Source of the DNA: Bryoerythrophyllum caledonicum
Lineage: Eukaryota; Streptophyta; Bryopsida; Pottiales; Pottiaceae
Length of the DNA: 64,000 nt
NCBI GenBank assembly: GCA_963971425.1
Contig: OZ020514.1
Coordinates: 44,545,527 to 44,609,526, forward strand
Direction: 5' to 3'
Shown: positions 956-35,920 of the stretch, piece by piece
Layout of the letters: the number at the start of each line of letters is the position of its first letter
Position numbering within the stretch: the first letter of the stretch is position 1
Program-made: the position numbers and the translations under genes
The notes under the pieces: generated by a model
Told to the model about the DNA's origin: nothing
The model's input: only the letters and a program-made list of their open reading frames with translations
Databases searched by the model: none

Positions 956-1058
956 ATGGCAAAGGACCTACAGCGCTAGAGTTCAAGCCACTAATCGACG
1001 AGTACTTTGCAACGGCCGGCATAAATTCTTCAATCTATAAGTATGTTTCTATTTCACC

Positions 1059-1224
1059 GTCGGTTGCCAGCCGACAACAAGCTGTATATATTGTCGATGA
1101 AGTAGTTTGGTAATTGATTGCATGAAGTTTAAATTGTAGGTCATATTGTAAGATATAGTAGCGCATGTGCACTGCCGTCGGCTGCCAGACGATGGTAATC
1201 TCTGGCAACGGTTGTCAGCCGACG
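1059..1224. repeat. Three locus 1 palindromes in intron 1
   Basis: Copies at 1059-1075 (GTCGGTTGCCAGCCGAC), 1176-1195 and 1209-1224 lie inside intron 1 of the ParB-like/methyltransferase-like gene. The first starts 18 bases after the 5' splice site. The consensus is an inverted repeat GTCGGCT / AGCCGAC around three bases. Intron 1 of the homologous gene in locus 2 also holds clustered palindromes, of a different sequence. Confidence 0.8.
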
Positions 1225-2656
1225 ATATATTACGATGACGCGTCTCACCAACATTGCGTGCTATCTTGTTGCGCAGGTTGAGTAAGCTTAAGTGGTTGTT
1301 TGGGCAGAGTATTAGTGAGGATGAGGCAGTCTGACTCGAAAACCAGCCCTCGAAAGCTACATTTGAGGATCGTCCGGAATTAACAGAAAGGGGCATTACC
1401 TAGAGGCCGGGGGAGGTGATTGAAATGGGTATTAACGGAAAACACACGGGCAAGAGTTTTCTTGGTGGAAACCTGGTCGTCGTGATGGATAGTATGGAAG
1501 ACCTTGAGGACGACGACTTCATTCGACATTTACTGAAGGTGAAGGTTTGAATAGCCAATGACAACCCGGAGTCTTATGTTGTAAGAATTCAGTGGACCCT
1601 CTGCTCACAAGAGCTATGCATCTCGGCACTGGGAGTGGGCATGCAGTTTAGCGACGTATACCCAGAAGAGCCGCAGAGAATTGGTGGATTGCTTCATGCA
1701 GGCAAAGGACCAGAGAGTGGAGCTGAATGGCAGATCTAGGGGTCATGGCAAATGTACAGCTGTAAAGAAGCCAAGGGCCTCAAAGAAGGCGAGCAGTTTT
1801 GCAGTGACAGTTGTTGCTAGAGCACCTGCTACGGAGGTGTCTCCATCAAAGGTTCCAAAGAAGCAAGTGTCTAAGAAAACTACAAAGGTGAAGACTGTGG
1901 CCAGAGCACTCGTATGTTTAAACAACTTCTCGTCCAGTACCAACAGTAGGGAGGTAGAGGAGATGTACAACACGGTCTAGAACAGATTGGGGCGTTGTTA
2001 TCCATTTGGGTAGCAGGTTCTGCCAGTTACGATTCATTCGTCTAAGATCCACCTTGCTCCCCACAAAATGGTTTCCAGTGAACTTGTGGACAGGCGCCTC
2101 AACCAACTCCGGGTCATCTACAAGGCCATGGGTCCTTGGCGGAAAAAATTGCCACTATACTCCGTTTCTCTTCGTGCACCGCCAAATTCTACTCGGAATG
2201 GCAAGGCGTTAAAACGTATGGAACTTCTTCGCAAAAGTGCGCCCAAAGTGATGGAAGACTAGGTGCAATTTGACGGTCAGACCTATAGGTGGTATGACGA
2301 TCCCAATTGTCATTAGTTCATCATTGGTAGGTAGCACACGTACTCTGTATGTAAGGAGCTGGGGGAGATGGAAGACCCCGAATCTTCTAGAGCAAAGTGT
2401 TTTACAAAGTAGGACATTATAGTTCTCTGGTGGAATAACTAGGACAACTTGGTGAAAACTTCAAACCTCCTGAACGTTGATGTTGCTGAGAAGAAAGTCG
2501 AAGAGACCTATGTTTCCCAGCTTCAGAGAATGAGAGAGAGGTGGGTGGAGCTCGATCGCATGGACAAGCTTAAAGACCATGCTGCCTGGAAGGTATTATT
2601 ACTACTCACTTGCTTGTTCAAGCTTTCTGTGCATTGCTGCTCAAGTATTTCTGACC

Positions 2657-2673
2657 GTCGCCTGCCAGCCGAT
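2657..2673. repeat. Locus 1 palindrome in intron 2
   Basis: GTCGCCTGCCAGCCGAT, a slightly decayed copy of the 17-bp inverted repeat. It lies in the intron 2593-2732 between the ParB-like exon and the next exon. Confidence 0.75.
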
Positions 2674-4091
2674 GTCTTCACATCCCATGGCATGTGATGT
2701 ATTCTTTGTGATTGTTGCAAGAATTTTGCAAGAATCACCTCACTATAATCATGAGTAAGGCTAAAGACGTGGAGACACAAAAGCTGCACCTAGATTTTGT
2801 TCGAGATGACCTCTATAACAAGTGATAAGTGGTTTTCACCGCGTGGAAAATGGGTCAATTAATTGGGGAGAGTGGACAACCTCCTCTCCAAATTCCTCAA
2901 ATTCCGCAGCGGGACATCACGCACACAGACCTTTCGTACTTTGTCAACCTGCGTGACGAAGACTCCATGAAGCTCGTTGAGGCGATCATGAACAAGAAGG
3001 TATATGTTAAGGTCTACTCAAGAAAAGAAAAGGGGGCAGTTGGTGTGTCGATGAAATCGTGGATTATAGATGTAAAGATGAACTATATCATCAAAAACAA
3101 ATTGATGCTGAAGTACCACGATTATCCACTGAAAAAGCTAGGAGAGGCCACTTATGTTTTGTGGGCGTATGAGCAGTTCATGTTGCTTGTTGCTGAGAAG
3201 GATATCAACAATGAAACCATTGATAACATCAAACGCGAGTTGGAGCAGTGCGATGCCGGCACAACATTCTTGAAGGGTAGGAACAACGGTATTATTCCAA
3301 CAACTTCTGAGGCCCCACCTGAGTTTTTGACACCCGTGAAAAAGTACGCCGTTCTATGTGATGAGGATCTAGTTGGATTCGTCGTTTGCTACGAGGTTTG
3401 TGTTGCGAAGGCGCTTGTCGAAGTGATGGAGAAGATCGACGACGAAGGAGACGTCCAACGCAAGAAGGGGGCTCGCAAGATGTTCGTTGTATTTAGATGC
3501 AACGAAGCAGGGGAATCGATCTTTATCGGCAGAGACAGACTCAAAACAATTGTGTAGAGGGTGCTACAGGGGAGTGATGATGATCAGTGTGGGCTCTTTG
3601 CTCTTACAATTCTTATAACTGACAAGAACTCCAGTTTTCAAATTGAGTCGGAATGTCGTGGTTCCACTGAGGATTGTGATGTCCACACAATTTGCTACCT
3701 CCTTGATAGTAGCAGGAAGTCCAAGGTATTGGCCATGCACGACAGACCCGTAGCTAATGTCGGAATTGTCTACAACAAGCCGAGCGATGAGCGTGAAAGA
3801 TTTAGCCAGTTTAAGAAGGTGACGGGATTGTCAAAGCCTCTCAATCTTGTCTATGATGACGCCGCTATGTCCTCGACGGAGAGCTGGTGTGGAGATGTGT
3901 GCAATCCTTGTATGGATTTGCTCACCGCAATTTAGGGTCCTACCTTGGTGGTAAAGGAATTGAACGTGACCGTCTTCAATGCCTGGGGTGGTGGGAATGC
4001 CACAGCTTTGGCCTTGGTTGGCTTTCTTATCCCTTCTCGTTCTTGCTGTTCTTTTCAGTCTTGCTATTACCAATTGTTGTCATTGCATCAC

Positions 4092-4108
4092 GTCGGCTAT
4101 CACCCGAT
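4092..4108. repeat. Locus 1 palindrome in the intron after motif I
   Basis: GTCGGCTATCACCCGAT sits in the intron 4017-4159 that separates methyltransferase-like motif I from motif II. The homologous intron of locus 2 (24267-24388) also contains that locus's own palindrome. Confidence 0.75.
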
Positions 4109-5274
4109 AGACTTTTTCAGCGGAACTCTGACTAAGCTTATTGTATTTGTGCTTAGCAGGCGAAAGCAATTGTTTTTGAGTTTGGCACGAGAATGGAGAC
4201 GTTGCCATTGCAAAGGAGCGCATGAAGAATAGTCCTTCCTTCCGTAGCCACCTGGTAGGCCTTAGCAAATCACCTAGCCTTACCAATCTGATTCTTCAGT
4301 TAAGGCTACTAAGCTTGGAGGCAATTTATCGTCTGCGCCTGAGGGCGTGGCTTTGAGGGCTGATTCACAAAGAAGCGTTCCATCGAATTTTGATGCTCAT
4401 GCCTCAACGAGAATTGCTCAACTCGGAGGTGTTTCTTGTGTTGCGGCGGCGTTAGTGGAGGACTTTGTGGATAATTCCACCCAGTCGTCCAGCTCACGGC
4501 ATTCAATGGAAGTGCTTGATTTATCGGACGACAAGTTGTCGGATCGTGATTTTGGATTGAATCATGACGAGGCTAGCGTCAACCATCCAGATACCTTGAT
4601 TGGCGAGGAACTTTAGTTAATAGAGCCCGAAGTGTTGCCTAAAGAAGTGGAAGAGGTGATGCCCGCCATATCTGTTGTCGTCAATCTGGCCGAGCAACCA
4701 CTAGTTGAATCTATTGTCCAGACTGTCCGCACTTCTATGGCAGCTTCTAAGCCGAAGAACGTCCAACCTCCTCATCTCTCGAAGGACCCTAATGTTGGCG
4801 AACCGCTCACTCCTGATTTAAGCGTCGCCGAGCCGGTACCTCAAAAGGAAGTCACGGTGGTTTCTACTAGTATTATCGTCGCACATGGAAGCCCTAAATC
4901 AAAGAGGCCAAAGATAAGCGTCAAAACTTTTGGTTTGAAACGGTCGAAGTCTCTTAAGGCAAAGACGAAGGGTTCGGTTGCGAAGCGCGGTGGAAGAGGC
5001 AATTCTTCTTCAAGACCGGGAAAGCCAATGACCCCTAATGGCAAAAATCTCCCTAACGAGCCCCTGCCTCCGCACAAGCATCGTGCAGGCATTCCATCTG
5101 GAGGTTAGTTTATTAGTTAGCTTACCATAGCTTCAGAATTTAGTGATCTAGCGTGCAACTAATTTTCTGAAATATTTATAGACTCTTCTTGATTTTGTGG
5201 TCAGGTGCATTGCATATTTTGCGTTTGATTTTATGAAATACTCTCTGAGCTTGTCTAAATTTTTGAGTCGGTTC

Positions 5275-5291
5275 GTCGGCTGGCAGCCGAC
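5275..5291. repeat. Locus 1 palindrome, best copy
   Basis: GTCGGCTGGCAGCCGAC has perfect seven-base arms. It lies in an intron that starts near 5102 and ends with the acceptor before 5338 (caatcag), just upstream of the first NIF-like module. Confidence 0.85.
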
Positions 5292-5429
5292 TAAGGATCC
5301 AATGTCCTGTAAATGGTATTTCTTGCATTCAGCCAATCAGGAAACTAGTACTCCTATCCAGGCTGCTTCTGGTGCTGTGGAGTAGGTTGCGGCTGATCGA
5401 GAATCCAAAGCGTTTGAGCACATGGTTCA

Positions 5430-6027
5430 GTGGGTTCAAGACCCCTCAAAGATTACTACCTTGTACTTGAATTAAATGGTTTGAGTCTCATGCATGGCGA
5501 TGACCGTGTTACTAAGTTCCGGCCTCACACCCAACAGTTTCTCAAGTACTGGGTTGATAAGTTTACTGTCGTGATTTGGAGTTTCGAAAGTCCGGCAAGA
5601 GTGGGGACTCTTCTAAACTTTGCAAGATCAGTTTGAATATATTCTTTGGAGAATCAAACATGTCTTGGATAATACGCTTTGTGATGTAGCTCGATATTTT
5701 GTCTATGGAAAAAAAGTCTACCTCAAGCAGCTATCAACGCTATTTCTTAGTTATGGGAAATTGATAGGGAAAGGAGCCAATAGCGTCAACATTCACTTGA
5801 TTGACGTTCATCCGTACTTGAACGTTAAGAATTCTCCATATAACGCCATTCATCCGATGCCCTACACTCTCACTTCAGCTGAAATTGCCGATGAGAGTAG
5901 GCAAGCTCTCTCGGTGATAGTATCTTTTTTGAAATCGATAAGAGTAGGGTTGGACTGTTCCCACATATACCTCAACTGTGGACCACTTTATCATGGTGAA
6001 GAAGTTTGCCGAGCCTTTTCGGAGTGA
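5430..6027 (+). pseudogene. NIF/FCP1-like (HAD fold) module 1, catalytically degenerate
   Basis: The first part (5430-5636) reads YYLVLELNGL, then FRPHTQQFLKYWVDKFTVV and IWSF. This is the layout of the NIF/FCP1 CTD-phosphatase domain, whose family form is LVLDLDET, RPGLREFL and VIWT. The second part, in another frame from 5620, contains LIDVHPYLNVKNSPYNAIHP, matching the family's later D-x-P and NAI region. The catalytic DxD is replaced by ELN, so phosphatase activity is not expected. A frame change near 5620-5636 marks either decay or an unrecognised intron. The module follows directly on the basic tail of the ParB-like/methyltransferase-like gene, so it may be part of that gene. Two further copies follow in tandem. 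The fold assignment is by motif pattern, not by alignment. Confidence 0.5.
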
Positions 6028-6315
6028 CAAGCCTCGTCGCCTTCGCCTTCAAGGTGCAAATACGGATTTGGATAATGAGCACTCTACTAGAGTTGATACA
6101 ATCGTGTCTCATGCAGCCGACGTCGCTCCTGAGCCTCAAGGCTGGCAAAAGCCCTTCGTTCATCCAAAGCTCGTCGACTCTTCTAGGACTGTGTTGGTCG
6201 CCGTCCCAGGGAACCCTCGACTACTTCTAGGTCAACCAAAGTGGGAGCAGTTTGTTTGGTCCTTCCCAAGCAAGAAGCGTCCAAAGTCACTTGCAAGTAG
6301 ACCTTAGTTAAATCA

Positions 6316-6334
6316 GTAGGCTGCATACCGACGG
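6316..6334. repeat. Locus 1 palindrome, decayed
   Basis: GTAGGCTGCATACCGACGG, just downstream of a reading frame that ends at 6307. Five of the seven arm bases remain on the right. Confidence 0.5.
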
Positions 6335-6579
6335 TGAAATTGATCCCATTTCTTTTTGTGACTTTTGTCATGACTATGGAATTTTGTTTTGAGTTTGCAC
6401 AGTGATAATGTCTTTGTGTGAATGTTTTCTCATAATAAACTTCGCTTGTAATTATCCCAATTTCTTTTGCACTTGATGGTTTCGTAATTCATGCATAGAC
6501 ATCAATTCATTCCTCCAGGTTAACCCTGGAGTCGGCGACGCAAGTGCTTGGTCTTTATTGCTTCAAGCCTGACCATCTG

Positions 6580-7290
6580 GGAAGGTCAATAAGTACTTCC
6601 TTGTCCTATCTTTGAACAGTCTGTTGATGGTGGAAGGTGTTGGAGCCGACAAGAAATGGCATACCATCTTCCGGCCCATGCTGAGAGAGTTTCTCAAATT
6701 CTGTGTTTTGAACTACACTATGGCAGTTTGGAGTGACCAATCCAGCTCCTTTCTAAAATTGTAAATGATAGCTCTTGAAGGACAGTGTGGCACTACTGGG
6801 TCAAATTAGACATCGTTTCCACAACAGTTTCTGCGACAAAGTAACGACATCGTTAAATGGTTGGATACTTTTTATTTGCAGGCTCTGTACCCATTTTTTG
6901 CATCCGTCCGGCCTGTTAGGCACTGGAGCAAATAGCCTAAACACTCTTCTTCTCGAATGCTGCCATTTTAATAACGTCCGGAATAGTCTCCTCAATGTAA
7001 TGCATCCACTGACATTCGATCTGAGTTTGAAGGAGACCACGAAGAATGCCGTTCTTCCTGGTCTTGTTAAGTTTCTTTCTGATTTGCTTTCATCGGGCTT
7101 GCCTATTCGTAGTATGTTCGTCAGAACATCGATTCAACAGGTTATTCTCGTCTATGGCCTGATGATCAAAAGTAGGAAGAATACATTGAAGCTTATCCGA
7201 GCTCGAAGCGTTGGAGCATTTCTTCCTCATAGGATAGCAGCGTCGGCGGGCAGCCGATGCCTTGGAATATTCATTTTGTCAGACTATTAG
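6580..7290 (+). pseudogene. NIF/FCP1-like module 2, catalytically degenerate
   Basis: The block reads KYFLVLSLNSLLMVEG, then FRPMLREFLKFCVLNYTMA and VWS, repeating the plan of module 1. The second half (6775-7290) contains GTGANSLNTLLLECCHFNNV and VMHPLTFDLS, parallel to GKGANSVNIHLIDVHPYLNV in module 1. The DxD position reads SLN, so the aspartates are again lost. The halves lie in different frames separated by about 50 bases. Divergence from module 1 is high, so the duplication is old. The 3' end of the frame runs through a locus 1 palindrome at 7242-7258. Confidence 0.48.
7242..7258. repeat. Locus 1 palindrome at the end of NIF-like module 2
   Basis: GTCGGCGGGCAGCCGAT. One arm is perfect except for one base. 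It falls inside the apparent reading frame, close to its end, so the frame there may be intron. Confidence 0.7.
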
Positions 7291-7401
7291 TGACTTGCTG
7301 TAAATACAATCTTCTTGGTAATTAAGCTCTTTCATTTTTCAAACAATCTTTTGCAATTGGTGCCTCACTAAACCCATGCATGTCTACTCTATTGACTTCA
7401 G

Positions 7402-8601
7402 ATGCAAAATTCTCTCGTTGAGGTCGGAGTTCCTGTGGAAATTTTGCACCAACTTGCAGTCGCGACTGATCTAGGAGACAATGATTTAACAAACAACTCC
7501 CCGCCCTTTAGTGGATTTCAGTCCCTATTTGGTGATTACGAGAGACTTGAGCATCAAGGCGTCCTTGAAGCCTCTTTTAGTTGTGGATTTCATGTCGATT
7601 CTTGCCAATGCTCACTTCAACGTGGCAGGGAGCCTGCAATTGTAATCGGACCGGCTATTGCAGATGAGATCGCGTCACCAATGCGTCCTGGGAATGTTGC
7701 TGTGGTTTCCGGCTCCACATGTTGTCACGTTGAGGAGGTTGACGCTGACGCTTGAGTTTTGGATGGTGCTTGTCCTATCGGTGTCAATGTGGTTGGCTCC
7801 CAACCGACACCTTCATCTCCTTCAGTACCTGCTGCCAACCTCAGCTCCGATGTGGTTCCAAGGAACATTTAGGTGGGTCCTTCAAGCTACCACCTCATCC
7901 TTGAAATAAAGAGGCTTCTTCTCGCCAAAAGTTTTGTTTGTTGTGGCAATGCAAAGAAGAAGAGCTTTCATCAAAAATCTGGGCCTGGGCTTCAAGAGTT
8001 CCTTACTTTCTGCTAGTCGTCCTTTTTGTTTGCCTTTTGGTCAACTTATAAGTCAAAAGATATCTTTCGGCACATGGATCACTTGTTCGATGTTTTCCTT
8101 GACTTGCGAAGGGACACAAAAGTGTTGAGCTCTACGTAATGTGATTCCTCTGCGGCCAAGAATCCCACGACTATTGTTGCCCCACTGCTGAAGAGGTTGG
8201 CTCGTATGTTTACTGATAAATGCTTTATGATTGGGCCTGATGCGAAGGAGCTAAACACGCTTCTCGTTGATCCCTTTCCTCCCCAGAATATCCTCAAGAG
8301 CCCCTATAATGATGTTCATCCTTCTCTTTTTAAATATAATCCACCAAAGATCTTAGTTTTCAAAATGCAACCCTATCTCATGAGTGCGTTAATTCCCTAG
8401 CTCTCGAGACTTTTGAGTATTGGAGTCAATGTCCAAGAATACTGCTCATCAAATTGGGAATTCGGAATGACTCGAATGTTTCCGGGGTTGTTTCAACATC
8501 GAAAGTACAGGGAGGTCATCTATTCCCACGCATTTGGTTTTCACGGGTCATATTGTCCTAATGAAGTGCAATCCAACCTGACAATTGACTACTCCCATTG
8601 A
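7402..8601 (+). pseudogene. NIF/FCP1-like module 3 with N-terminal extension
   Basis: One frame can be followed for about 400 codons with five in-frame stops (three TAG, one TGA, one TAA). Residues 1-117 (7402-7752) are an unrecognised acidic extension with no counterpart seen in modules 1 and 2. The NIF-like core then reads HLILEIKRLLL, GPGLQEFLTFC, FAFWSTYKSKD and, further on, KELNTLLVDPFPPQNILKSP followed by YNDVHP. That last stretch is the same region as NIHLIDVHP and YNAIHP in module 1. The DxD catalytic pair is absent (EIK). With modules 1 and 2 it forms a tandem array of three inactive phosphatase-like domains, which is unusual because NIF proteins normally carry one. Confidence 0.5.
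7792..7808. repeat. Locus 1 palindrome inside the NIF-like module 3 frame
   Basis: GTTGGCTCCCAACCGAC, a decayed copy lying in the extension of module 3, where it would be read as VGSQPT. Confidence 0.6.
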
Positions 8602-8814
8602 GTATCCCTTGTTTCTACAATGGGCTTTTCCGAATTTCTCTTCTTCCTTACTGCTATCAACAATCAAAAATTGAACTTTTATTACCTTGTAATTATTGAA
8701 TTTCTCCAATCTTAAGACTTATTTTCTCATTGCAGTTTTTCTATGTATATGTATTTTCTTTATCACATGTCTGCGGTTCATATCGTATATTGGTCTTGTT
8801 TGTTGTTATGCTTT

Positions 8815-8831
8815 GTCGGCTGGCAGCCGAC
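8815..8831. repeat. Locus 1 palindrome, best copy
   Basis: GTCGGCTGGCAGCCGAC, identical to the copy at 5275-5291. It lies in a T-rich stretch between module 3 and the next possible exon and is probably intronic. Confidence 0.85.
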
Positions 8832-8971
8832 GGTATAGTATTTTCATCCGTCGTTAATATTTGGCATCATGACGATTGTTTTTATTTATTTTCCATGGGT
8901 CATCCTTTTATTTCAAATGCATATATGTAACCCCTTCACCATATCAAAAGTGTGTTGTCCTCTGTGTTAAT

Positions 8972-9250
8972 GGGCTCCTTTGCTTTCTGAAATCGCGTAT
9001 GCCGTCTTCTAGTTTTCGCACTTCTGAGAGTATCGTTTGTTGGCTGGGCCTGAAAAAGCTTTTTGAAATGTTGCTACCGTGCTTTAACGTCAGGCATTGG
9101 TCAACGTTGCCGTTAGAGCAGTTAGAACTAGTCTTGCGGCATGTTCTTCTAGTTGGTGTTATTGATAGGCTATCATTTGTCTATATCAGACGTGACTTAG
9201 CTCAAAGCTTATATTTTCCTTGGAGTTACATAACGATGTCTGCTTTCTAA
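8972..9250 (+). CDS. Possible terminal exon of locus 1, unrecognised
   Basis: The open frame contains SSFRTSESIVCWLGLKKLFE, then LPLEQLELVLRHVLLVGV, with coding-like composition after a T-rich intron-like stretch. I do not recognise a family. It could be a further piece of the NIF-like gene or an unrelated frame. No start codon context or splice sites decide the matter. Confidence 0.25.
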   Translation, partial: GLLCFLKSRMPSSSFRTSESIVCWLGLKKLFEMLLPCFNVRHWSTLPLEQLELVLRHVLLVGVIDRLSFVYIRRDLAQSLYFPWSYITMSAF

Positions 9251-9742
9251 GAAGAATCATTTGCGTGTTGTCTATCTGCCTCATCAAGTTTTGTTTATGG
9301 ATGTTAACCCAAAGTCTCTCTGAAGAAACCCTAACAACATTTGTTGTAATCCGTAGCCGTTTGAGGGTCATTTAGCCTTTGAGACGAAGACCAAGTTACT
9401 CCAAACGTGGTACCCGACATCCTTCCCCTCATCTATCTGCTCCATATATTTTCAAGCGTCCCTAAATATTTGAAGCAAGCACATCAACCAGGCCAGGCGC
9501 ATTGGGCGGTTTCAAAGGCATTTGAGTATGGGCAAACAGTTCTCCGATGGAACAAAATTGAATGGTACTAGGTCTTCAGCAAACAGCCAATGGTCTTCCA
9601 ATTAGTTCTTGTTCATTAGTTGAAAGAGACATTTTGTAAAGTACATAAAGTGATCATCTGTGTTGTACAATTTGTTTTAGAGTGCCTATGTACATTCATT
9701 AGTTTCCGATTATTCAACTGCATTCTAGGATGTTTTTCTTCT

Positions 9743-9809
9743 CCGGATGCCAGCCAGTTGTATTTATCAGTTTTTGGGATCTCAACTTTATGATTGGGTG
9801 CTAGCCGAC
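9743..9809. repeat. Two decayed locus 1 palindromes, last copies
   Basis: Remnants at about 9743-9760 (GGATGCCAGCCAGTTG) and 9792-9809 (ATTGGGTGCTAGCCGAC). No further copies are seen to the right, so they mark the approximate right limit of locus 1. Confidence 0.5.
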
Positions 9810-12670: not shown

Positions 12671-12709
12671 ACTCTCTCTCTCTCTCTCTCTCCCTCTCTC
12701 TCTCTCTCT
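12671..12709. repeat. (CT)n microsatellite
   Basis: Run of CT dinucleotides with one CCC interruption. Confidence 0.9.
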
Positions 12710-12971
12710 TAGGCTAATTTCATTATCCCACATCGCCATACTCATGCTTACCACAAGCCTAGGCAATCTCACACATGCCATATTTAACTAAATCTAGACT
12801 TTCAAAAGTCGAGATTGGTCAAAGTCCAGATTTAATCTAATTATGGCATAGAAATCCTTCGATTGTTCCAATAGAATTATCAGAGATGTAGTATAAACTC
12901 TAAGTGTTAGAAGATGAATTAAAATAAAATTGCAGGAACTGGAAGGACGTCATGATATTGTGGGGATAATC

Positions 12972-13548
12972 GATAGGAGGATCCTCTAGTCGGACTCAAA
13001 CTAGTTAGAGAAGAAAGAGTTTGAGTCCCAAAATGATATCTGGCTCCTTGTAAATGTTAGAGTGCAAAAACGTGATGGAAGTTAATTACTTTGAACTACT
13101 TGATAGGAATAGATGACAACAATAGAAACATCTTTAGGAGAACAAGATTATGATCAAGGACCGGCGGATACTCCAAAGCAACGTGGACATGAAATCATAC
13201 AAAATATTGGTTGATGTTCAAAGATGATGCGACGAAAAAACATGCAAGTAGTGGAAGTGAGTAGAATAACGCTGAATCTTCATATTAAGGTTTAGAAACA
13301 AAATTTATAGCATATAGGTGGTTCTAGTAAAAACAAAAGAATCTCAAGAGGGATGATACAATGTATACCACTAGTGCGAAAGTCAGAATTGCTTTTGTGT
13401 GTGCATCAAATTGAGAAGACATGTGGATTTGTACATACGCATGATGAAGACTGGTGAATTCTCCAATCGAACTGTTAGGCAGGAAGAAGACAGGTGGATC
13501 CTCCGGCCGAACTGATAGGCAAGAAGAAGACCGGCGGATCCTCCAATC
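12972..13548. repeat. Cluster of five locus 2 palindromes
   Basis: Copies at 12972-12991, 13159-13176, 13449-13468, 13489-13508 (GACAGGTGGATCCTCCGGCC) and 13529-13548 (GACCGGCGGATCCTCCAATC). The last three are 40 bases apart, separated by similar spacers (aactgataggcaagaaga), so they form a small tandem array of a 40-bp unit. They lie just downstream of the minus-strand DUF7869 gene and mark the left limit of locus 2. Confidence 0.8.
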
Positions 13549-15604
13549 AAACAGATTGCCAGGAAGAATAACGGCAGATCATTAGGTTGAACTCAAAACC
13601 TTCTATAAGACTATATAGTCAAGGGTCCGCGTCGTTTGCAGCTGCAAGGTTAGTCATGGCTGCTCTTTGGTACCTATCTAGAATTGTTCGAGTCTTTGGA
13701 TTTAATTTCTTTGACCAGGAGGAAAATAAGACGGCATCCACATGCATTTTCTCCGGACGTCGATTTTCAGGAGTCCACGTTGCTGACCAACAATCCTCGT
13801 ACTTCTTTGAATGGTCTCTGAACGCATTTCTTGGCTCCCAGAATTGGATTACGAACTTTCCATAGTTGTCATCTCCAACTTCTCTATTGACTGCAGAATG
13901 CGCCTTCTCTAACCAGAAAAGATATATTTCAGGGTCTGAAGGATGGAGTAGTAACCATGATCTCGATATCACATCTCGCCACGGCTTCAAATACTCCTTT
14001 GGTTTGGACGCCCATGGGCCGCAGTAGTGTTCAGGCTCCTCATCTTGAGGTGTGACATCTCTTCTAAAATGAGGTATAAGGGATCTGGAACTATTGCACT
14101 CCAATCATGATTTGGCCAAAAGCCTTCTACCAAGGCCGAAGGAGTGGGAGGAAGAGGTTTATCAAGTTCTGCCAGTACTGCATTTGAGTAGGCCACATAA
14201 GGTGGAAAATCTCTTCGGAAGCCCTCGCATTTTTCATTCCTTGTTCCTAGAAACCAATATAACCTCAAATTCCAGACTTTATGAACGACCTCTTTCCAAG
14301 CGCTTTGGAAGCCTTCTCCCTTGCCTTCACTTGATCACCGGCTTCAGATGGATCCTCGTCTTTCCACAATCATTTGAAAGATACATGGATTGGAATGCCT
14401 AAAGGAATCATTGGATGTCCATTGGTATCCACCTTCCAAAGGCATATTGCAGGCTTGTTTCGAGATAGCCAGTGCAGATCAACTATAGAAAATTTATAGC
14501 GCATGACGGGCCAACCTTCTTCATCAATGTAGATTTTGAAGAGGTGCATCTCTCCTAGGCCTACAAGTTTTTATACACCGTCACATACATAGCCATCGAT
14601 GAAAGATTTGAACTCTGCAACCTCTTGAACAAACTCGGGCACAAAACTCATCTCTTGCGATTCCATGAAAGACTTCATGAAGTCAGCAACTACAAATGTA
14701 TTGCAATTCTTCAAGGTCTTGAACAAGTGCCTGAAGTAAAAATCGATATCCTCATGTGTGTGCGCCACTAATTAAGAAACGAACTTGGATTTCGTTCAAC
14801 ACCTTTCAATAAGTCAACATAGATAAGAACGTCATAAGAAGCTGGTTTTTATTGTCCTTTACAGAGTTGTCCAGTTGCAAGTACAACTGCTTTGGTAGGG
14901 AGACGCAAACAATTTCTAGGCTCGGTATCACCTTAGGTAAAACAACAAGACATCTGGACTTTCCACGTAGCATTGCCTCAAAGAACGAGTTCCCCACCTC
15001 GTAAGAGAAAAGCCTGCCTGTAACACGAATGGGTCACGGTTCTTTGGGATGACGTTGCAATCTGGCAATGGATGAAATTGTGTAATTCGAATCCCTTGGC
15101 CACAGATCAATAGAATAGTGGGCGTATGCACCATCTCCATGTCCATGCATGACCATTCCGGTGACGTTCATTGGTAGTTGACCAAGAGCTGAAGTAACTT
15201 TGGTAGTAACTCGCATATGAGGAATAGAAATCTTGGTCGTATTCATATTATCGTGGATAATGCAAATATTATATCCCTTATTGCGTTTGGACTCCTCTCT
15301 CTAAGAATGGTACACACGCGGACACGAGGCTTAGTTGTTCAAGTGCGTATTTCGTTGTTTTTCAAATGACACATACTCAGCGAAGCCCTTCACGGATTTC
15401 CCAGTGAACTGCTATAGAGTGTCACAGGTAGTGCACTTTGCAAATGTACTCCCCATAAGTTTTACTGCAACATTGTTCAAGAGCTCCTTCTTGATTCTAC
15501 ACACAACAGACTGCAAAACCTTGGGCAACCCGTACTCAAGATTTGTCTGCAAAAAAAAGGCCGTCAATAAAAATTAGAGTAGAATGTCCACACATTGAGT
15601 CAAA

Positions 15605-15624
15605 GACCAGAGGATCCTCCGGTC
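15605..15624. repeat. Locus 2 palindrome in a DUF7869 gene intron
   Basis: GACCAGAGGATCCTCCGGTC, one base from the perfect palindrome. It lies in the intron downstream (on -) of the donor near 15810. Confidence 0.85.
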
Positions 15625-16739
15625 ATAGAACACAACAATGGATAGGGTCATGGATTCTCATTAAGAACAACTCACTACTTACAGTCGGAGCCACACCGCT
15701 AACATTGTTTATACCAACACACTTGTGAAACTTCAAATGACTTCTATTCTGGATTCACTTGATCAAAGCAAAAAAGAATGGCATTGAGATTTTCCGTGAA
15801 GTATCTTACCTCCGTAGCATCAGCTTAGATCCTCTTCCAACTATGACCTGATGGTAGAAACATGAGTGCGTCCATGCGACCTGGTACAGTAGTCCGCATC
15901 TGATGAGGCATGTTATCCGCATTCTCGTTGATAATTGTCGTGATGGTACCCATTACTTGCACGGTTTGGAGAGGGGGTCGTTTGACGCCTTTATTCCCAT
16001 GAGTAGATGACAACATGCCCGCTTGGTACAGTTTGACATAGGTGTGAAAAGTTGACTTGGGTATGCCATGTATTTTATACCATGCTATAGCGCAGCCATC
16101 TACACCAAGCAAAGTGACATACTTCATTTTACAATTATTTCCCAGGTTTTGCAGTTGCCGTCCCACAGCAATTCCATATTCTTGCCTATCGTCAAATCCC
16201 TTCAGATAATACCGCTGTCGAACGGACAAGGTATCACTGGGACGAAATTTTCGAGTGCATTCGTCAGGGCAACACGACTGGGAACTGACAGCTTTAATCT
16301 CCAACGCACTAGTTTTCATTGCGTAAGAATTGAGCTTCTCCTCAGTGCGCTTCTTGCGACGAATAAATTGGTATGGTGCTTTTGGTCGACCACCAAGGTG
16401 CGAGTATGGATCAGCTACTTCCGGAACATGGAAAAAATGCTCAACCGTCTCACTTAGACCTCGCCCACCATCAAATCTACATTCGGATATGGGCCACCTA
16501 TGACGACTCATAATATCATTACAATTACCAATGAAGACATCGAACACAGTGATTCCAATGTTTCCCTTCCCTAATGTACTGTTCTAAAACGGCTTGCCAG
16601 GTAGAGAGTAGTTGATACGTCCAGAGGCCGTGAAATCCCCATCACCGATATAGAGATTAACCACATGCCCTACCCATTACGCTTGTGGGATGTAAGGAAT
16701 GGCGTTTGGGATCTCTGATGAATCATGACCTCTTGGAGA

Positions 16740-16759
16740 AAGCGGAGGATCCTTCGGTT
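16740..16759. repeat. Locus 2 palindrome read as protein
   Basis: AAGCGGAGGATCCTTCGGTT lies inside the DUF7869 gene frame, where it is read on - as QPKDPPLSP. The motif has become part of a coding exon here. Confidence 0.7.
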
Positions 16760-17113
16760 GTAGAACTACCCGCTCGGCATCCAAAAGAATTGTCCTACCC
16801 ATTGCATCAGAGAGTATAAAGATACCCTCCTGCAATGGCTGCATAAGGAGATTCCTCGCCTCATGTCGAATCTCAGAAGGTCTAAGCAGAAGTATATCGC
16901 CCATGATGAGACTGATGTCGACGCCAAGCCAGTTTCCTATTGGAGAAGTTTCAATGACGGTGGCTTGTCCAACAACGCCATGCACAGAGTAAGTGAGTTG
17001 AACTTCCATGCCTGGAAAGAAGTCGCCACGGCAATCACACGCCCCAACGTCAACCCTGCCACATGATGGCTTGGTATAAGCATTGCGCGTACAAAGTGAA
17101 GAAGACATCGAAG

Positions 17114-17133
17114 GACCGGAGGATCCTCCGGTC
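17114..17133. promoter_or_regulatory. Perfect locus 2 palindrome 5 bases upstream of the DUF7869 gene ATG
   Basis: GACCGGAGGATCCTCCGGTC is its own reverse complement over 20 bases. It ends five bases from the minus-strand start codon at 17106-17108. A second copy (GATCGAAGGATCCTCCAACC) follows at 17180-17199. A binding site for a regulator of the element's own genes is one reading; this is inference. Confidence 0.6.
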
Positions 17134-17179
17134 TCGTATTAGATTTGGGAAATGTGATGAACTCTTCCCTCGTCGATGA

Positions 17180-17199
17180 GATCGAAGGATCCTCCAACC
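17180..17199. repeat. Locus 2 palindrome, decayed
   Basis: GATCGAAGGATCCTCCAACC, in the leader of the DUF7869 gene. Confidence 0.8.
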
Positions 17200-17262
17200 T
17201 CTGCCAAGAAAGCGAATGAATGATGAAAGTTCCTGATGTCCAACTCCTTCTAGGGTCATCAT

Positions 17263-19679
17263 TGGTACACGTCAGATTTTTATGGACAAGTGGTACAAAA
17301 CAGACCTACGAAACTGAGAAAAAGGAAACCAAAGCAATACAAATCAAAATTCACAATCAAAATTTGATGCTATTGAATCAATATTGAAGTTGATGAGTGA
17401 ATGTCGAAGATTGTGAATCAATACAACAACGTCTAAAATGAATATGAATTCTGACGTTCACAGATAGAAAGTAATTTGATACGGAAAATTTTGGCTTACT
17501 TGATACCGACACGTAAAGACCGCGGGCTAACACAATCTATGGAGGAGTATCTCACTAAAACAAAGCGCCCTGCAAACTGGATGAGCCTCAAACAAAATTG
17601 CGCTCCATTGAACAATGTAAAGATAACGCCCAGATCAAATTAGACATCCGAAAAATATTCCTTGGCAATTAACAGCCTTGTAACAAAACCAGGTCACTGA
17701 TCAATTACGCCTTGCAACGAAATCGCCCTCCGTTAATTGGCCGAGCCCTAAGCGCGATGCTAGAAATTCTCTGTGTTGAAAATGCTCTAAAATAACCGCG
17801 CGGATGTGCAGTAAACGCCCCGCTCTGCACTGATCGTCTTGCACTACACCAAAGAATACGCACCAAAGAATCCGCACTTTTCAATACGATGCAGTATACA
17901 CAACCATACCCACAACCAACTCTGCCAGAACCTTACTCACAACTATATTCACAACCTTACGCAGAACATATCAACAGCAGCCTATCACAAGGGTAACATA
18001 AACCTCATAACAAAAACTGAAACTTCAGAATGAAGTACACCCTACTCTTCAGAATCCACGTCAAATTAGTGTGGGAAGTTTGAGGTGGATCAATCTTGGC
18101 AAGATTAGTACACAATCATTATCCAGCAACTATAGAATGGTTCTTAAACCCATGCAATGTAAGGATGCATTGGTCCATGTATGAAGTACGAAAGATCAAT
18201 ACAAAATAGTAAAATATGTCATTTAGTTGATACTTGGAAAATGAGAACGTGGAATAATCATGAATACTACGATTCAAGGTTTAGGAATCAATGATAGATT
18301 AAAAGTAAATAAATTTCTAGCTTTAGGGTTTCAACTTTCTTGCTATTCCAAGTACAAGGTTTAGGGTTTAGAGTTTAGGGTTTAGGATTTCAAGGTATAG
18401 GATTTAGCATTTTAGGGTTTAGGGTTGCAGATCCTTTGAGTTCAGGATTTCAACAATCAATATTAGAGTTCAGGGTTCAGTGTAGGGATTAGCGTACATC
18501 AAATTGAGGATTCTGGGTTTAGAATTTAGGGTTGAGGAATATGGGTATATCAATTGATCCGGGGTGCCGAATTTATGGTTGAGGGTTTAAGGCTAGGGTT
18601 TAGGGTACAGGGTTCTAAGATATGAGGATCTAGAATGCATGGATAATTAAAAAAGGTCGGGTTTCAAAATTATATACAAGCATTCTAGTAATCTAGGTTA
18701 TAGAACAAGGAATAAATTACTTCCATGTTCACAAAGATTTAATTTGGCTAGATTTAAAGCATAATTGTTTATGACATTTGAAAGTAATGTGGACATTGCC
18801 ACTATGAACTCTATTTTGTGAGAGATATATATCTTCATTTTAATTTACTAGAAGGTCAATTGAATGATTTTTCATGTCGTTCACAATTAAATGTACATTA
18901 ACATGTATACCAGCTAATATTTCATGACAAAAGATATATTACTCAAAATATTATTCAACATTGTGTAAGCAATATGAATGATAATATTATTATTGGATTT
19001 TGATTAAATAAAATAAGAGAATTCATTTTAGTATACAATAAATATGTTACTTACTACCACTAAAAAGGAATAATATCTTAAATTCTTAGTAGCCTACATT
19101 AGTTAATAACATAGTGAGATATCATATATATTATTAGTGTGTACATTTTTGTATATTCACGTTGCTCAAAAGATAACATGATATTCATTAAAGATAAATA
19201 CAAATGCTAACTAGGTTTTTCTAAAAAGTCATCACCCTAAATCTTTTGTATAGATTGTTGAATTATTTATTATGCCCTTGATTCATTTACCATTGAAATA
19301 TAGATCTTTATATAATTTGGTAGTCTAGTACCGATTATTGGACAAGAATTATGACTTTAAGGGACTCTACATAAGTGATATATTCCTAACCGTATATTCT
19401 TAAACCTTAATCCTAAACCTATGATTCTATACTGAAGAGAGGAATTTTTCTTTGAAAAGGAATAATATTGTATAAATTTGAACTAGTATACAGTGCTAAC
19501 TTTAAAAAGAATTCAGAGTTTTAAAAGAAATTTCTTAGTGAAAAAGAAATTTCCACTTGATGGGAAAGTAAATCATTCAATCTCCAACGCATTGATGTAA
19601 ACAACATCACGAGGGAGTAAAATGTCTAATTAGCCGAGAAGAGGACAGGTAATAGATCCTAATCATAAGCAGTCTAGGC
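17263..19679. other. Intergenic stretch between the divergent locus 2 genes
   Basis: No gene is supported. Positions 17,500-17,830 are of moderate GC with gcgcc-rich words, and 18,620-19,560 is strongly AT-rich. The telomere-like block is listed separately. Confidence 0.5.
18318..18605 (+). repeat. Degenerate telomere-like (TTTAGGG)n block
   Basis: Many copies of tttaggg, separated by variants such as tttagag, ttcaggg and ttaggatt, all in the same orientation. TTTAGGG is the common plant telomere repeat. The block is short and decayed, so it is an interstitial relic or an A/T/G-rich satellite that resembles one. Confidence 0.6.
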
Positions 19680-20385
19680 CTAACTCCACACCCAGTCGCC
19701 CGTCTCTCCCCCTTGCCATTGCCATTCTCTCCTCCCACCGCCGCCATGTCCAGTTTCTTGCTTCAGCCATTTCCAAGTCGTCGTTCCTTCTACTGGACTT
19801 GTTTCTGCGTTGTGGTGGATTGCAATGCGCTGCGAGGAGCTATTAGCTGCTTTGAGGAGCGTTAGGGAGGTGTTGTGGAGCTTTGAGGAGCTCTGAGGAG
19901 CAGTGAAGAGTGGTGAGGAGCAGTGAGGAGCTGTGAGGAACGTCTCGTGCGAGTCTAATTTCTCGGTGCTAATGTCTGAGAGTTGCGCTACAACGAGGTG
20001 TGAGGAATCTGCACACTTGAAGGCAAGAGTTGCGTTGTGAGTATTGTGCGATAGTTGCACATCCTGTGACAATTGCGAGAATATTGAGTTGCCGACCAAG
20101 AAGCGAAAAGGTCTCGAGGAACTACTTTGACCACCATATGGAGGTGTGATTTCCAAGGATTTGTGTGCAACTTTTAGAGGCCCGTCATTACGAACAGGCG
20201 TGGCGATCCCAAATGCGCCACATTGAAGATAGGTACGTAAAAATATGTTTCTCGATTCAAAACTTCTGATTTGCGTCCAGGTTTTGCCTAGGTTCTGAAA
20301 ATACAAACCTACTAGTATTCCCAGACATATTGACTTCAAACATTTGTTGTTGATATAATTCTGTGAAACGCAGATTTGCGGTATC
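19680..20385 (+). other. Leader exon and intron of the locus 2 ParB-like/methyltransferase-like gene
   Basis: GC content is higher than in the surroundings. Positions 19,850-19,935 contain an imperfect GAGGAGC(A/T)(G/T)TGA repeat. A donor (ATAG-gtacgtaa) at 20233 and an acceptor (gaaacgcag) ending at 20373 delimit a 141-bp intron, after which an ATG occurs at 20386. The long minus-strand open frame over this segment is a product of the repeat. The transcript is inferred from splice signals only. Confidence 0.4.
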
Positions 20386-20666
20386 ATGGCAGGCGCTTCT
20401 TCAGGAGCAATCGTGCAAGTGCCGGAGTTCCTCCAATAGTACGATTCTATTCCATATACAAACTCATATTGATGTTTGCTACAAAGTTTTGGACACATGA
20501 TTGGATTCTTTTACTTATTGATTTCTAGAGAAGCAAGATGAATGCTAGTAATTCAATTTATTATATTTCCATCGGTACTCAGAAGTATTGTACGGACAAC
20601 AGGTTCAGTCTAGTCTTTAGAGTAGGTTGTTAGGGCAAATAATCACATGCAAGAAGACTCTGAGGA

Positions 20667-21349
20667 GACCGGAAGATCCTCTAGTCTTTGCCAATAGTAT
20701 ACTCTAGGACATATATTGTAGTAATTACTATAGTGACAAGAGGATCCTCCGGTAGCTGCCAGCTGCTAGACCTGTTTCTCCAAACTGGATCCTCAGTTCA
20801 GACTCGAGAATCCTCCAGTCCCTTCTATTTGAGCGTTTTGTATCATTGTGTTCTAGAGTCTGTGGAGACCGAAGGATCTTCCGGCCCCTTCCATTTTGCT
20901 TTTTCTCATTTTGTGTTTTGGAGTCTGTGGAGACGGAAGGATCTTCCGGTCCCCCTTCCATTTCAGCATTTTCTATCCTTGTGTTCTAGAGCCTGTGCTG
21001 ACCGAAGGATCCTCTGGTCCCTTCCATTTCAGCTTTCAATATCACTGTGCTCTAGAGTTTGTGGAGATCGGAGGATCCTTCGGTCCCTTCCATTTCAACA
21101 TTTTGTATCTGTGCGTTCTTGACTCTCTGGTGACTGAAGGATCCTCCTGCCCCTTCCCTTTTTTCTTTTTGTTTCTTTCTGTTCTAGAATTTGTTGAGAT
21201 CAGAGGATCCTTCGATCCCTTCCATTTTAGCTTTGTGCATCTGTGTGTTCTTGATTTTGTGGTGACCAAAGGATCCTCCGGTTCCTTCTATTTTTGCTTC
21301 ATGTTTCTTTAAGTTCTAGACTCTGTAGAGACCGGAGGATCCCCCGGTC
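20667..21349. repeat. 66-bp tandem array: 11 units, each with a 20-bp palindrome
   Basis: Palindrome copies start at 20667, 20735, 20801, 20867, 20932, 21000, 21066, 21132, 21198, 21264 and 21330, a period of 65-68 bases. The intervening ~46 bases are themselves related (cccttccatttcagc... gttctagagtctgtgga). The consensus palindrome is GACCGGAGGATCCTCCGGTC; most copies keep GGATCCTCC or GGATCTTCC. The array lies inside intron 1 of the ParB-like/methyltransferase-like gene copy 2, about 370 bases upstream of its long coding exon. Open frames across it (ILWSLPFQ-type repeats) are artefacts. Confidence 0.9.
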
Positions 21350-22913
21350 CTTTTCAATTATCGTTTGTCTCTCTGGAATGTCATTGACCCTGTGGACATG
21401 AGTTGAACAATTGGCTGACTGCATTTACATATTTGAATCTCTTCATGTCAACTTCCACTCGGTGCACGAAATTTCGTCGAGTTCATTGTATCGTGGTTCC
21501 CCAAATTACTTATGCAGTTGTTTTTTTCTACAGCCAAAACTATATCAAGAAACAAGATATGAACCTTGATTGATGATGAGTGAAGCTTGACCTTGCAATC
21601 ACAGTGGGGTGAAGAAGTTTGATTATCAACACAATGAATATAAACCCCTTGCTTATTTCCTAGAGGAAAATGTCTTCAAGTGGGGCTTAGCTTGGTAGAA
21701 GGACTGCAAAAAGGATTTGGTCCGAATTGCTTTTGTTATCGCGATACAAAGCGAGGACCCTGGCAATCCATTTGTGCTATTGACGAAGCACCTTGAGGTG
21801 CTGGATTCAAAGCGACTTGAGGAGTCTGACTTGATTCTTCTTCTCATCAACAAGTTTCTGCTCAGAACTGGATGTTGTAGGCTCTATGGCCTTGTTATAC
21901 CATCTTCTATTTTGAGCCCCAAGCACCGCTCGACTCTTCTGGACTTTGGCTTCCAAGTCTTGCGTATGGGACCAGATCCTCGCATCGTTGCTTCAAATTG
22001 CGCCAAACTCCGGGCCCAGCGGGACAGTTCCAACTCAAACCAGAGGAAGAACAATCCTCCAACACCTACAAAGACACGGAAAAGGCCATCGATAACGGCT
22101 ACTGCTAGTGAGGGCAAGCCTTCAAAGAAGAAGCCTCAGAGGAAGAAGTCGGATCCGAAGGAGGATGGCATGACATTGGCAAAGGTTGTGGCCTAGTCGC
22201 ACACAACGGTGACAAAGTACTCTCCGAAAGATTTGCAACAAGTGAAGGCGTTATACGAGAAGGCATTCGTGGATCTGCACATCTTTGGTAAGCGCCCAAT
22301 GAAGAAGGCGGATGATAAGACAAATATGACTGTCGACATTGATTGCATGTACAAAGCTCCTGCCGGGAAGGTGGTGTATCGTCTACTCGATCAGCTTTGA
22401 GTTGCTCAACTCGTTGATCAGAAGAGGACCATGCCTTCCTGGCATCATTGCAGCAATTGTACGTGATGCCGATCAGGAGACCTGCTCAAGAGGCGGACGA
22501 CGACGACCTAGCAGATAGGCCCGTAGTGTACTTTGAGCAAAAACCAACGAAGAAAGACATCAACAATCAGACCCACTATAACATCATTGGAGGCCAACAC
22601 TGTGTTGCTACGCACAAGGTTCTCATAACAAGGGAAATCTAAGTCCTAGAGACGCTGAAGATGCGCAAAACTTTGTGGTCACCATTGTGTGGGCGAAATC
22701 ATCAGATTTTGAAAGTCTTGTAAATTATTGGAGAGTACTCAACCGCACCTTGCCGGCAGCCGAACTGAAGGTAATTACCTTACCCAACTAGCAACCGTGC
22801 GAAAGAGCTGGAAAGATGCTGGTTGCCCAAGGTCGTCAGTCCGGGGTAATCCTAATACGCCTGAGTTTAGGGTGAGTCTCGATTGATATTCTTCCAACTC
22901 TCCTCTCTTAGAT

Positions 22914-22936
22914 CAGAACAAAGGATCGTCCGGTTG
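22914..22936. repeat. Locus 2 half-palindrome in an intron
   Basis: The right half, AAAGGATCGTCCGGTTG, is kept inside an intron that starts at the gtgagt near 22872 and ends at ttgcag near 22998. Confidence 0.6.
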
Positions 22937-24272
22937 CTCTGCTTTAATCACAATCATTTTCCTTCAATCTCAATATTGGCAATTTTTATATTGCAGGCAT
23001 CGGTTGAGACACTAGGGGCAATAGTGACTGAGAAAACGAAGCCTGTCAAAGACACGGAAGCATGGGGCCAGCCTAAACTGTTGCTCCTATTCGTTCTCGA
23101 CCACATGTTTGGAAAATGGATAGGAATCTAAGATGCTTGGATTCAAGGCTTGCTTCTGAACTCCTTCGGGATGAAATGCAGCTTCTCTAGCATTAATGAT
23201 GATGACACGGAGGAAGAGGAGGATCTCGGGCTTACGTCGAAGAAGAAGAGGATTCAGGCAAAGCGGTTTCATTCTAGAGCTCTTAAACAGAACGATCTCC
23301 AACCATTGTATGCTATGTGAGATTTGAAGATTAAAGAAGATGGCCCAACTAGTGATTGACCACAAGATCTCGATCAAGTCGACAAAATCAACGAACAAAA
23401 AAGTTGTACTTTCTAGTCTCAAAGATACTTGCGCCGCCAAGAAGAAGATTAGACTCATGATGAACGAGTTCATGTTTTACTTCAAGGATAAGCCGTTGCC
23501 CGCCAAGAAAGTCAAGGAGAACTATGGCGAGGACGAGTATCTTGAGGCTCCCGTGGAGCTCAAGGTATCCGACGCGATTATGCAGACGTGGTATGACAGA
23601 CTTGTTGTTTCCACGTTTTCCAGCCAAAATTGTATTTGGGTGATGAAGTGGAAATCACAAGACCTGGAGAAGATTCTCAAGCACGAGTCTTTCATCTGCT
23701 GGTACATCAAAGGTTTGACGGCCGTGGTTGTTTACAGCTTTGTCAATCGGGAGTCCCGAGGTACCAATTGGAATATCAAGGATCAGGTCAACCGTACTCT
23801 GATAAGGACAAACAGAAATTCAAGAGGCCATTGCTCGTTGGAGGGTGTTCATCACCGATCGAGATGGGATGGTAGAAGTAAAAAATGTTGTGTCAGAGCG
23901 GGCTAAGTCTATTCAACAGCACCAGATGTGGCATTGTACCTCAATATTGTATATTACGTCTGGGACTGATGGCTTCACTAAACCTTTAACTCTTGAATCT
24001 ATCCTACCCTTGAACTTTAACTTCCTCTAGGGTCACGATCCTGATATCAACGCGGAAAACACCTTCCGTAGGTTCTTCGGTAACGAATTGGTTTACCAGT
24101 ACGTGATAGACGTAGTAGAGTTTAAGGATGAAGCACTCAGTGGGCTGAGGATAACCACGGCAGTTACAACATCAAAGCGGTGAACACATTGATTGGCTCG
24201 CTTGGGAAGAACAGCAATGTCATTGTGAACGTTGGCAAGGGTTCTGCTATATCATGGATTGGCTTGGTAAGT

Positions 24273-24292
24273 GACCGAAGGATCCTCCGGTC
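24273..24292. repeat. Locus 2 palindrome abutting a 5' splice site
   Basis: GACCGAAGGATCCTCCGGTC begins immediately after the GTAAGT donor at 24267 in the intron between methyltransferase-like motifs I and II. The corresponding intron of locus 1 also holds that locus's palindrome. Confidence 0.85.
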
Positions 24293-25285
24293 TTACATTC
24301 GGCTACTTATTTAGCATTGCTTTGTTCTGACAGCTTTCTTTGCTCTATAATCGTGATCTCAACCAAAGTGTTGTTACTTTGATTGCAGACTAAGGACGCA
24401 CAAGTCCTTGAGATCGTCTACGACAACCTTGATGAGGCTGCTGCTCATTGCAAAGCTTCTGCTATTTGGGAATCTCGAGTTGTGTTTATCCTGATGGCAC
24501 CTCCTCAAATGACACCAAAGAAGCAAAAGACAAAGCAAAAGACACCGCAAAAGAAAGAGCCAGCCGCAACACGTCGCACGGGTTGTTAGCAGTCTGATGG
24601 CGGGGCTTTAACGCGTGACGACAACTTGCCGTCTAAGCGGAATCTAGATTTTAATGCCCCCCACCAGGTGGAAGACGTGACATGGATTCAAATTCTAATC
24701 ACTTGGATTTAAGTCGGGTGGGGATTTGGATTATAAGAAAACGTCAAAGGGATCTGAACATTCTTATTCTCCACCTTCAGAGAAAGATGTCTCGGGTCAA
24801 GCTAAAGTGCAAGAGATGTACCCCTTGAAGGAACGTCACGCACAAGCGGACGTGGAAGTCGACCTCGCAGAACTTGGAGCCGGAGAATCGTCACACTCGC
24901 AGGATAAAGACGACCTCGTAGATCAGAAGGTGTTGTTGCTCACTCATATTCTTAGGGAAACCCAAAAAAAAGCTTTACAGATGGATCAACACGGAGTATC
25001 TGGCGCTGCCGATCAAAGCACTGTCAATGTATGATGCAATTACTAACTCCGAACTCATGAACTAGCCCTAATCCATAGCTCAAATACTTTCTGTACAATA
25101 TTATATTTTTAATGGATTGTAAATTGCTCCTATCTTTCTTGATCGGGTTTTTCTTTTTCATTCTTGATATTCCTCCTGCTGCAGGCATCTCAGGGTGAAG
25201 ATGGTCGCGGGATGCGTGCATACACATCTTCCTTTCCGGTAACAATCTACAAAAAAAAATTGAAATTTCTCTCTTCCCTTGCATG

Positions 25286-35911: not shown

Positions 35912-35920
35912 GGGCAGTAC

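Follow-up and report, generated by a model that had tools for sequence, protein, structure and literature searches.

In a 64,000-nucleotide stretch of the Bryoerythrophyllum caledonicum genome (contig OZ020514.1, positions 44,545,527 to 44,609,526, forward strand; hereafter the window), we found two loci, element 1 and element 2, that carry related genes (genes A) and a different palindrome each, repeated in equivalent introns of the two genes and elsewhere in each locus. The two loci are probably two distantly related, now decayed DNA transposons, each of which would mark its own DNA with a private palindrome (17 bp in element 1 and 20 bp in element 2). Homologous genes, equivalent introns and a different palindrome at each locus are what one would expect if the site and a locus-specific DNA-binding protein change jointly, and the analysis supported this pattern. 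A first-pass annotation, made from the sequence alone, had proposed such a joint change of site and protein; the pattern fits, whereas gene A as the binding protein was unsupported.

Two palindrome sets, each confined to one element

The palindrome of element 1 (set 1, GTCGGCTGnCAGCCGAC, 17 bp) occurs in nine copies with at most 3 mismatches, all within positions 1059-8831 of the window, and that of element 2 (set 2, GACCGGAGGATCCTCCGGTC, 20 bp) in 21 copies with at most 5 mismatches, all within 12972-25337. At these strict cut-offs, the copies start at 1059-8815 and 12972-25318, respectively, and all of them (9 of 9 for set 1, 21 of 21 for set 2) are confined to one element; none was found elsewhere in the 64 kb, including the 38 kb to the right of both elements. 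The palindrome thus differs between the loci, as had been claimed. Copies without a mismatch begin at 5275 and 8815 for set 1 and at 17114 for set 2. The two copies quoted in the first-pass annotation are present but imperfect, with 3 mismatches to the set-1 consensus at 4092-4108 (GTCGGCTATCACCCGAT) and 1 mismatch to the set-2 consensus at 24273-24292 (GACCGAAGGATCCTCCGGTC).

Clustering was controlled with palindromes whose arms were permutations of the original arm letters. None of the 1994 permuted palindromes for set 1 and none of the 1999 for set 2 reached the observed clusters; the controls had on average 0.10 and 0.21 copies and largest clusters of 2 and 10, respectively. When 8-mers were ranked by local clustering with no prior knowledge, set-2 words took ranks 1-3 and a set-1 word rank 5, with a simple repeat in between. 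In an unbiased palindrome scan of the whole window (6-base arms, spacers of 0-8, at most 1 mismatch between arms), parts of set 1 and set 2 were the sole words with at least 5 clustered copies that were neither simple repeats nor made of A and T only. The permuted-arm controls and the unbiased scan rule out a chance origin of the clusters, and both palindrome sets are confirmed as real.

Looser cut-offs affected the two sets differently. At up to 6 mismatches, set 2 gave 24 matches, 1 of them outside the element, and its shuffles gave 0-3. At up to 5 mismatches, set 1 gave 15 matches, 2 of them outside the element, and 15 shuffles gave 3-16 each; set 1 is not specific at this loosest cut-off. 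Because some shuffles reach the count obtained there, the 4-mismatch copies of set 1 at 885, 6316, and 9793 may be due to chance. Beyond the window, the set-1 palindrome was found in at least 119 stretches of prokaryote genomes, with one site each in the 80 listed, as by chance, and the set-2 palindrome had 0 matches in viral contigs.

Position of the palindromes within the elements

Most sites lie in non-coding DNA. With exon limits set by eye from open frames and splice-like junctions, on which these counts depend, 11 of 12 sites are non-coding in element 1 (8 of 9 without the three weak 4-mismatch copies that the count takes in) and 22 of 23 in element 2 (including two 6-mismatch copies, at 13159 and 13449), where 28 and 45% would be expected by length; the 11 of 12 for element 1 could drop to 10, since a gene B exon was ended at 7241 without a splice site and an open frame crosses the palindrome at 7242. 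With the tandem arrays of element 2 counted once, 11 of its 12 sites are non-coding (p about 0.001).

Introns 1, 2, and 3 of gene A hold 3, 1, and 1 sites in element 1 and 11, 1, and 1 in element 2. Clustered palindromes in intron 1 of both genes had been noted before and were recovered here, and intron 2 (sites at 2657 and 22916) is a further equivalent pair, beyond those previously listed. In element 1, six sites lie in the four delimited introns of gene A and the others in or beside gene B, an NIF-phosphatase-like gene. In element 2, the introns of gene A hold 14 of the 23 sites, 11 of these in intron 1, and palindromes also occur around a gene encoding a DUF7869 domain, with one weak copy in its coding part (16740, 4 mismatches). 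The sites spread over about 8 kb in element 1 and about 12 kb in element 2; the palindromes belong to whole elements and not to one gene. Those at 12972-13529, 17114, 17180, and 8815 are outside probable coding and intron stretches. No site was found in the gene A intron at 25029-25184 of element 2 or in the 3 kb that separate the two divergently oriented genes of this element. Two tandem arrays in element 2, with units of 66 and 40 bp, carry the same palindrome, and the likeness of their linkers was no greater than that of shuffles in four comparisons. Element 1 has no tandem arrays.

Nature of the sites

We aligned the sites with 15 bases on each side (n = 12 for set 1, three of them weak; n = 13 for set 2, most array copies being left out). 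The information content was 1.48 (set 1) and 1.46 (set 2) bits per column inside the palindrome and 0.20-0.31 in the flanks, a profile that is partly circular, the sites having been chosen by their likeness to the consensus, with flanks free of this circularity. The flanks outside the arrays are unrelated, and the sites are therefore not fragments of larger copied repeats. Compensated changes, in which both arms had changed and were still complementary, accounted for none of the 28 changed arm pairs of set 1 and for 7 of the 66 of set 2. Since arm changes are mostly uncompensated, the sites resemble double-stranded protein sites and not RNA hairpins. C to T or G to A changes made up 16 of 28 changes in set 1 and 52 of 75 in set 2, an excess as expected if this DNA was methylated and decaying. 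By their pattern, the palindromes look like symmetric double-stranded binding sites in decay.

Homology and identity of genes A

The occurrence of the same gene in both loci, proposed in the first-pass annotation, was upheld: genes A are distant homologues, as judged by exon-by-exon alignments and exon lengths. The lengths are nearly equal between elements 1 and 2 (1316 and 1338 nt for exon 2, 1257 and 1270 nt for exon 3). Global alignments of exons 2 and 3 had scores reached by 0 of 400 shuffles (z of 3.3 and 4.5), as did three of four local exon tests, although the element 2 proteins of these exons were assembled from different frames selected by eye, a choice that can bias towards alignment and that shuffles do not control for. 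Neither tblastn within the window (at 1e-3) nor an initial local alignment of the complete genes A detected the homology; 28 of 300 shuffles reached the score of that alignment. Introns 2 and 3 agree between the two genes A in phase (phase 0) as well as in position; for intron 1 the equivalence is limited to its position. Up to the intron 3 junction, the proteins read NAWGGGNATALAL in element 1 and NVGKGSAISWIGL in element 2, at equal distance from a glycine-rich stretch.

The earlier label of gene A as ParB-like and methyltransferase-like was unsupported: no Pfam match at an expectation value (E) up to 1 was obtained in the scanned pieces, and both the GGQH (ParB-like) motif and the glycine loop with an acidic strand after it, at the intron 3 junction, were recognised by eye only. 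The best PHROG match, in a search with two pieces only, was to a family of unknown function (E 0.042). No relatives were confirmed in viral contigs; in two scans, two stretches each fitted a pattern and encoded no relative.

Other genes and features of the elements

The features of both elements are listed in Table 1. The DUF7869 gene of element 2, which we take to be the probable transposase gene, matched PF25273 with an E of 6.9e-26 (91.5 bits, cut-off 26). Gene B of element 1 matched NIF (NLI interacting factor-like phosphatase, PF03031) in two segments (E 2.4e-6 and 2.1e-5), and a third segment, similar by eye, had no Pfam match. Two segments in a row resembling NIF and carboxy-terminal domain (CTD) phosphatases are a surprising cargo for a transposon. 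No convincing terminal inverted repeats were found for either element. Degenerate TTTAGGG repeats of the plant telomere type occupy positions 18358-18614, in the interval that separates gene A of element 2 from its divergent DUF7869 gene. Such repeats and the presence of spliceosomal introns point to a plant host.

Table 1. Features of elements 1 and 2 (positions in the window).
Feature	Position	Strand	Basis
Element 1 gene A, decayed, in-frame stops	956-5382	+	Limits of the first-pass annotation
Element 1 gene A intron 1, phase 2; palindromes at 1059, 1177, 1207	1041-1276	+	
Element 1 gene A exon 2	1277-2592	+	Junctions
Element 1 gene A intron 2, phase 0; palindrome at 2657	2593-2759	+	
Element 1 gene A exon 3	2760-4016	+	Junctions
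Element 1 gene A intron 3, phase 0; palindrome at 4092	4017-4159	+	
Element 1 gene A intron 4; perfect palindrome at 5275	5104-5361	+	
Set-1 palindrome, perfect copy GTCGGCTGGCAGCCGAC	5275-5291	.	Letter match
Element 1 gene B, decayed; palindromes at 7242, 7792, weak one at 6316	5418-8598	+	Pfam PF03031
Set-1 palindrome, perfect copy, 3' of gene B	8815-8831	.	Letter match
Set-2 palindromes 3' of DUF7869 gene, including 40-bp tandem array at 13435-13568	12972-13548	.	
Element 2 DUF7869 gene, decayed	13622-17108	-	Pfam PF25273; gene limits and start codon by eye
DUF7869 gene intron; palindrome at 15605-15624	15547-15682	-	
Set-2 palindrome, perfect copy GACCGGAGGATCCTCCGGTC, just 5' of probable start of DUF7869 gene	17114-17133	.	
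Element 2 gene A, decayed	20386-26124	+	Exon comparison
Element 2 gene A intron 1, phase ambiguous; 11 palindromes, most in 66-bp tandem array at 20810-21350	20439-21533	+	
Element 2 gene A exon 2	21534-22871	+	
Element 2 gene A intron 2, phase 0; palindrome at 22916 (5 mismatches)	22872-22996	+	
Element 2 gene A exon 3	22997-24266	+	
Element 2 gene A intron 3, phase 0; palindrome at 24273	24267-24388	+	
Element 2 gene A later intron; palindrome at 25318 (5 mismatches)	25239-25422	+	

Elsewhere in the window

At 56404-60079 and 61190-63438, a plus-strand Mutator-like gene (by eye) with a SWIM zinc finger (Pfam E 2.4e-4) adjoins long minus-strand open frames, two scanned pieces of which had no credible Pfam match. 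CTGGCC is enriched across this region (56.6-63.6 kb), with 10 occurrences of CCTGGCC against 1.2 expected, by eye mostly in probable coding sequence. We rejected CTGGCC as a third element-specific motif on account of this mostly coding position and of a clustering uncorrected for the many k-mers tested. A hAT-like transposase gene (by eye) lies at 36566-38972 inside a Copia-like region of about 35000-43900, and a Tc1/mariner-like gene (by eye) is on the minus strand at 45060-46080, with another possible relic at about 49850-50850. We also observed a direct duplication of roughly 480 bp, rich in GTTCCCAA-type words, at 31760-32577 and a long TAGA-type microsatellite grading into a GATAGACC-type repeat at 49361-49660.

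Discussion

We slightly favour the view that the private palindromes are sites of a dimeric protein that is encoded by the element and recognises its own family only, resembling in its action the VANC proteins of the VANDALs, which are Mutator-like elements of Arabidopsis. The private word, repeated through introns, untranslated and flanking DNA, would be the binding site of this symmetric protein, most likely the product of gene A because this is the only gene recognised in both elements. As the two elements are unlike in gene A as well as in the word, the action of each protein in trans would be limited to members of its own family, and its likeliest effect would be to maintain their expression despite host silencing, as VANC does for VANDALs. 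Protein binding to the palindromes, gene A as the source of the protein and the anti-silencing effect are what we infer from this arrangement. A more specific version is unlikely: self-marking anti-silencing that arose independently of VANC, in which a gene-A dimer, perhaps ParB-like, would load on the private palindromes, spread and block silencing, and in which gene A and the palindromes would diverge together, founding mutually blind families. If this joint version were true, the transposase gene of element 1 would be expected beyond the left end of the window, in divergent orientation to gene A and interspersed with set-1 palindromes.

Several points weigh against an element-encoded protein acting like VANC. 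The evidence comes from two loci only and, because both elements are decayed, any function of theirs is historical. The pieces of element 1 scanned with Pfam yielded no transposase, which may lie outside the window. No Pfam family, DNA-binding families included, was matched by the scanned pieces of gene A, where decay and frameshifts could hide a weak match, and structure predictions of gene A were unusable (mean predicted local distance difference test scores, pLDDT, of 31.8 and 32.9). One setting of the exon 2 alignment was not significant (24 of 400 shuffles), and intron 1, which has phase 2 in element 1, is of ambiguous phase in element 2 (phase 2 from exon 1, phase 0 from the open frame after the intron). 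In the 66-bp array, the palindrome is only slightly better kept than the linker (mean identity 0.753 vs 0.657, nine units). Finally, the sites of both elements are palindromes of 17 and 20 bp, whereas VANC motifs are described as non-palindromic, 8-9 bp long and in a single orientation in arrays (excerpts of PMC5735166 and PMC10398659).

The palindromes could instead be sites of the transposase itself or of a TnpA-like helper, as dispersed versions of subterminal repeats, gene A being incidental. The sites of element 2 do surround the DUF7869 gene, and TnpA of Spm and MURA of MuDR are other element proteins tied to methylation loss in their own elements (excerpts of PMC10398659), but the long spread of the sites, through introns and not gathered at the ends, together with the lack of a convincing terminal inverted repeat to define such ends, makes this rather unlikely. 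We consider it quite unlikely that they are operators unconnected with silencing, bound by a transcription regulator that is either a host factor or a protein of the element serving self-repression or copy-number control. Double-stranded, symmetric sites within genes and close to them, including one just 5' of the DUF7869 gene, would suit operators; it can be argued, however, that operators would need neither as many as 11 copies in a single intron nor sites 3' of genes, and that a host factor would leave the different word of each element unexplained.

Two further explanations disregard protein binding. The tandem arrays show that local amplification took place, as would be required of functionless tiny mobile or slippage-born repeats spread locally in each element, yet the unrelated flanks outside the arrays, the presence of copies in the first three introns of both genes A and mostly in non-coding DNA, and the lack of strict copies in the 38 kb to the right make such an origin very improbable. 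RNA hairpins, for example with a role in splicing, would agree with the intronic position of many sites, but hardly with the mostly uncompensated arm changes, with the several sites outside probable coding and intron stretches or with a gene A intron of element 2 that has no site, and we give this explanation almost no credence.

In the literature covered here, self-limited and sequence-specific anti-silencing is described in detail for the Arabidopsis VANDAL elements. Among the papers listed by searches that left most subscription journals uncovered, and judging by titles and the beginnings of abstracts, there was no equivalent system in other elements, nothing under DUF7869 or TnpA terms and nothing relevant on ParB with transposons, methyltransferase, CTD phosphatase or bryophytes. 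If true, the action of element-encoded proteins on the two palindromes would be a second case, with another transposase and another candidate protein, and would suggest private address sites as a general escape from silencing, sparing a transposon without freeing all others. The long symmetric sites ease testing of the code between protein and site.

Comparison with known systems

In bacteria, ParB and parS are a partition protein and its cognate palindromic site, which diverge together. The palindromic site is shared by the elements described here, the cognate protein being a candidate only; they differ by the absence of a ParB family match in the scanned pieces of gene A and by their many sites, dispersed in an intron-bearing transposon. 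In maize Spm/En, the TnpA sites are near the element ends, whereas here they are found through the introns of several genes. The shared feature would be an element-encoded protein, predicted in our case, on repeated short sites and tied to demethylation (for TnpA, excerpts of PMC10398659).

VANC21 binds YAGTATTAY in the introns of its own family and in its non-coding DNA, intergenic as well as terminal, the motifs of VANC6 are different, and VANC motifs grow by the formation of tandem repeats (excerpts of PMC5735166); unpublished work mentioned in a part of PMC12859917 suggests that VANC coevolves with its target DNA. Our two elements share with VANDALs an element-specific short motif (here within the 64-kb window), located mostly in introns and non-coding DNA and partly in tandem arrays (in element 2 only), several genes per element, and the association of different motifs with related proteins in related elements (here two loci, with gene A as the candidate partner). 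VANDALs have a Mutator-like transposase (VANA), whereas element 2 has DUF7869 and none was recognised in the scanned pieces of element 1. In addition, DUF1985 and DUF287, the domains of VANC proteins (excerpts of PMC5735166 and PMC10398659), have no match in the scanned pieces of gene A, although decay could hide a weak one. Because site shape, transposase and candidate protein all differ, the system described here would work like VANC without being a VANC system, the likeness being one of habit and not of site.

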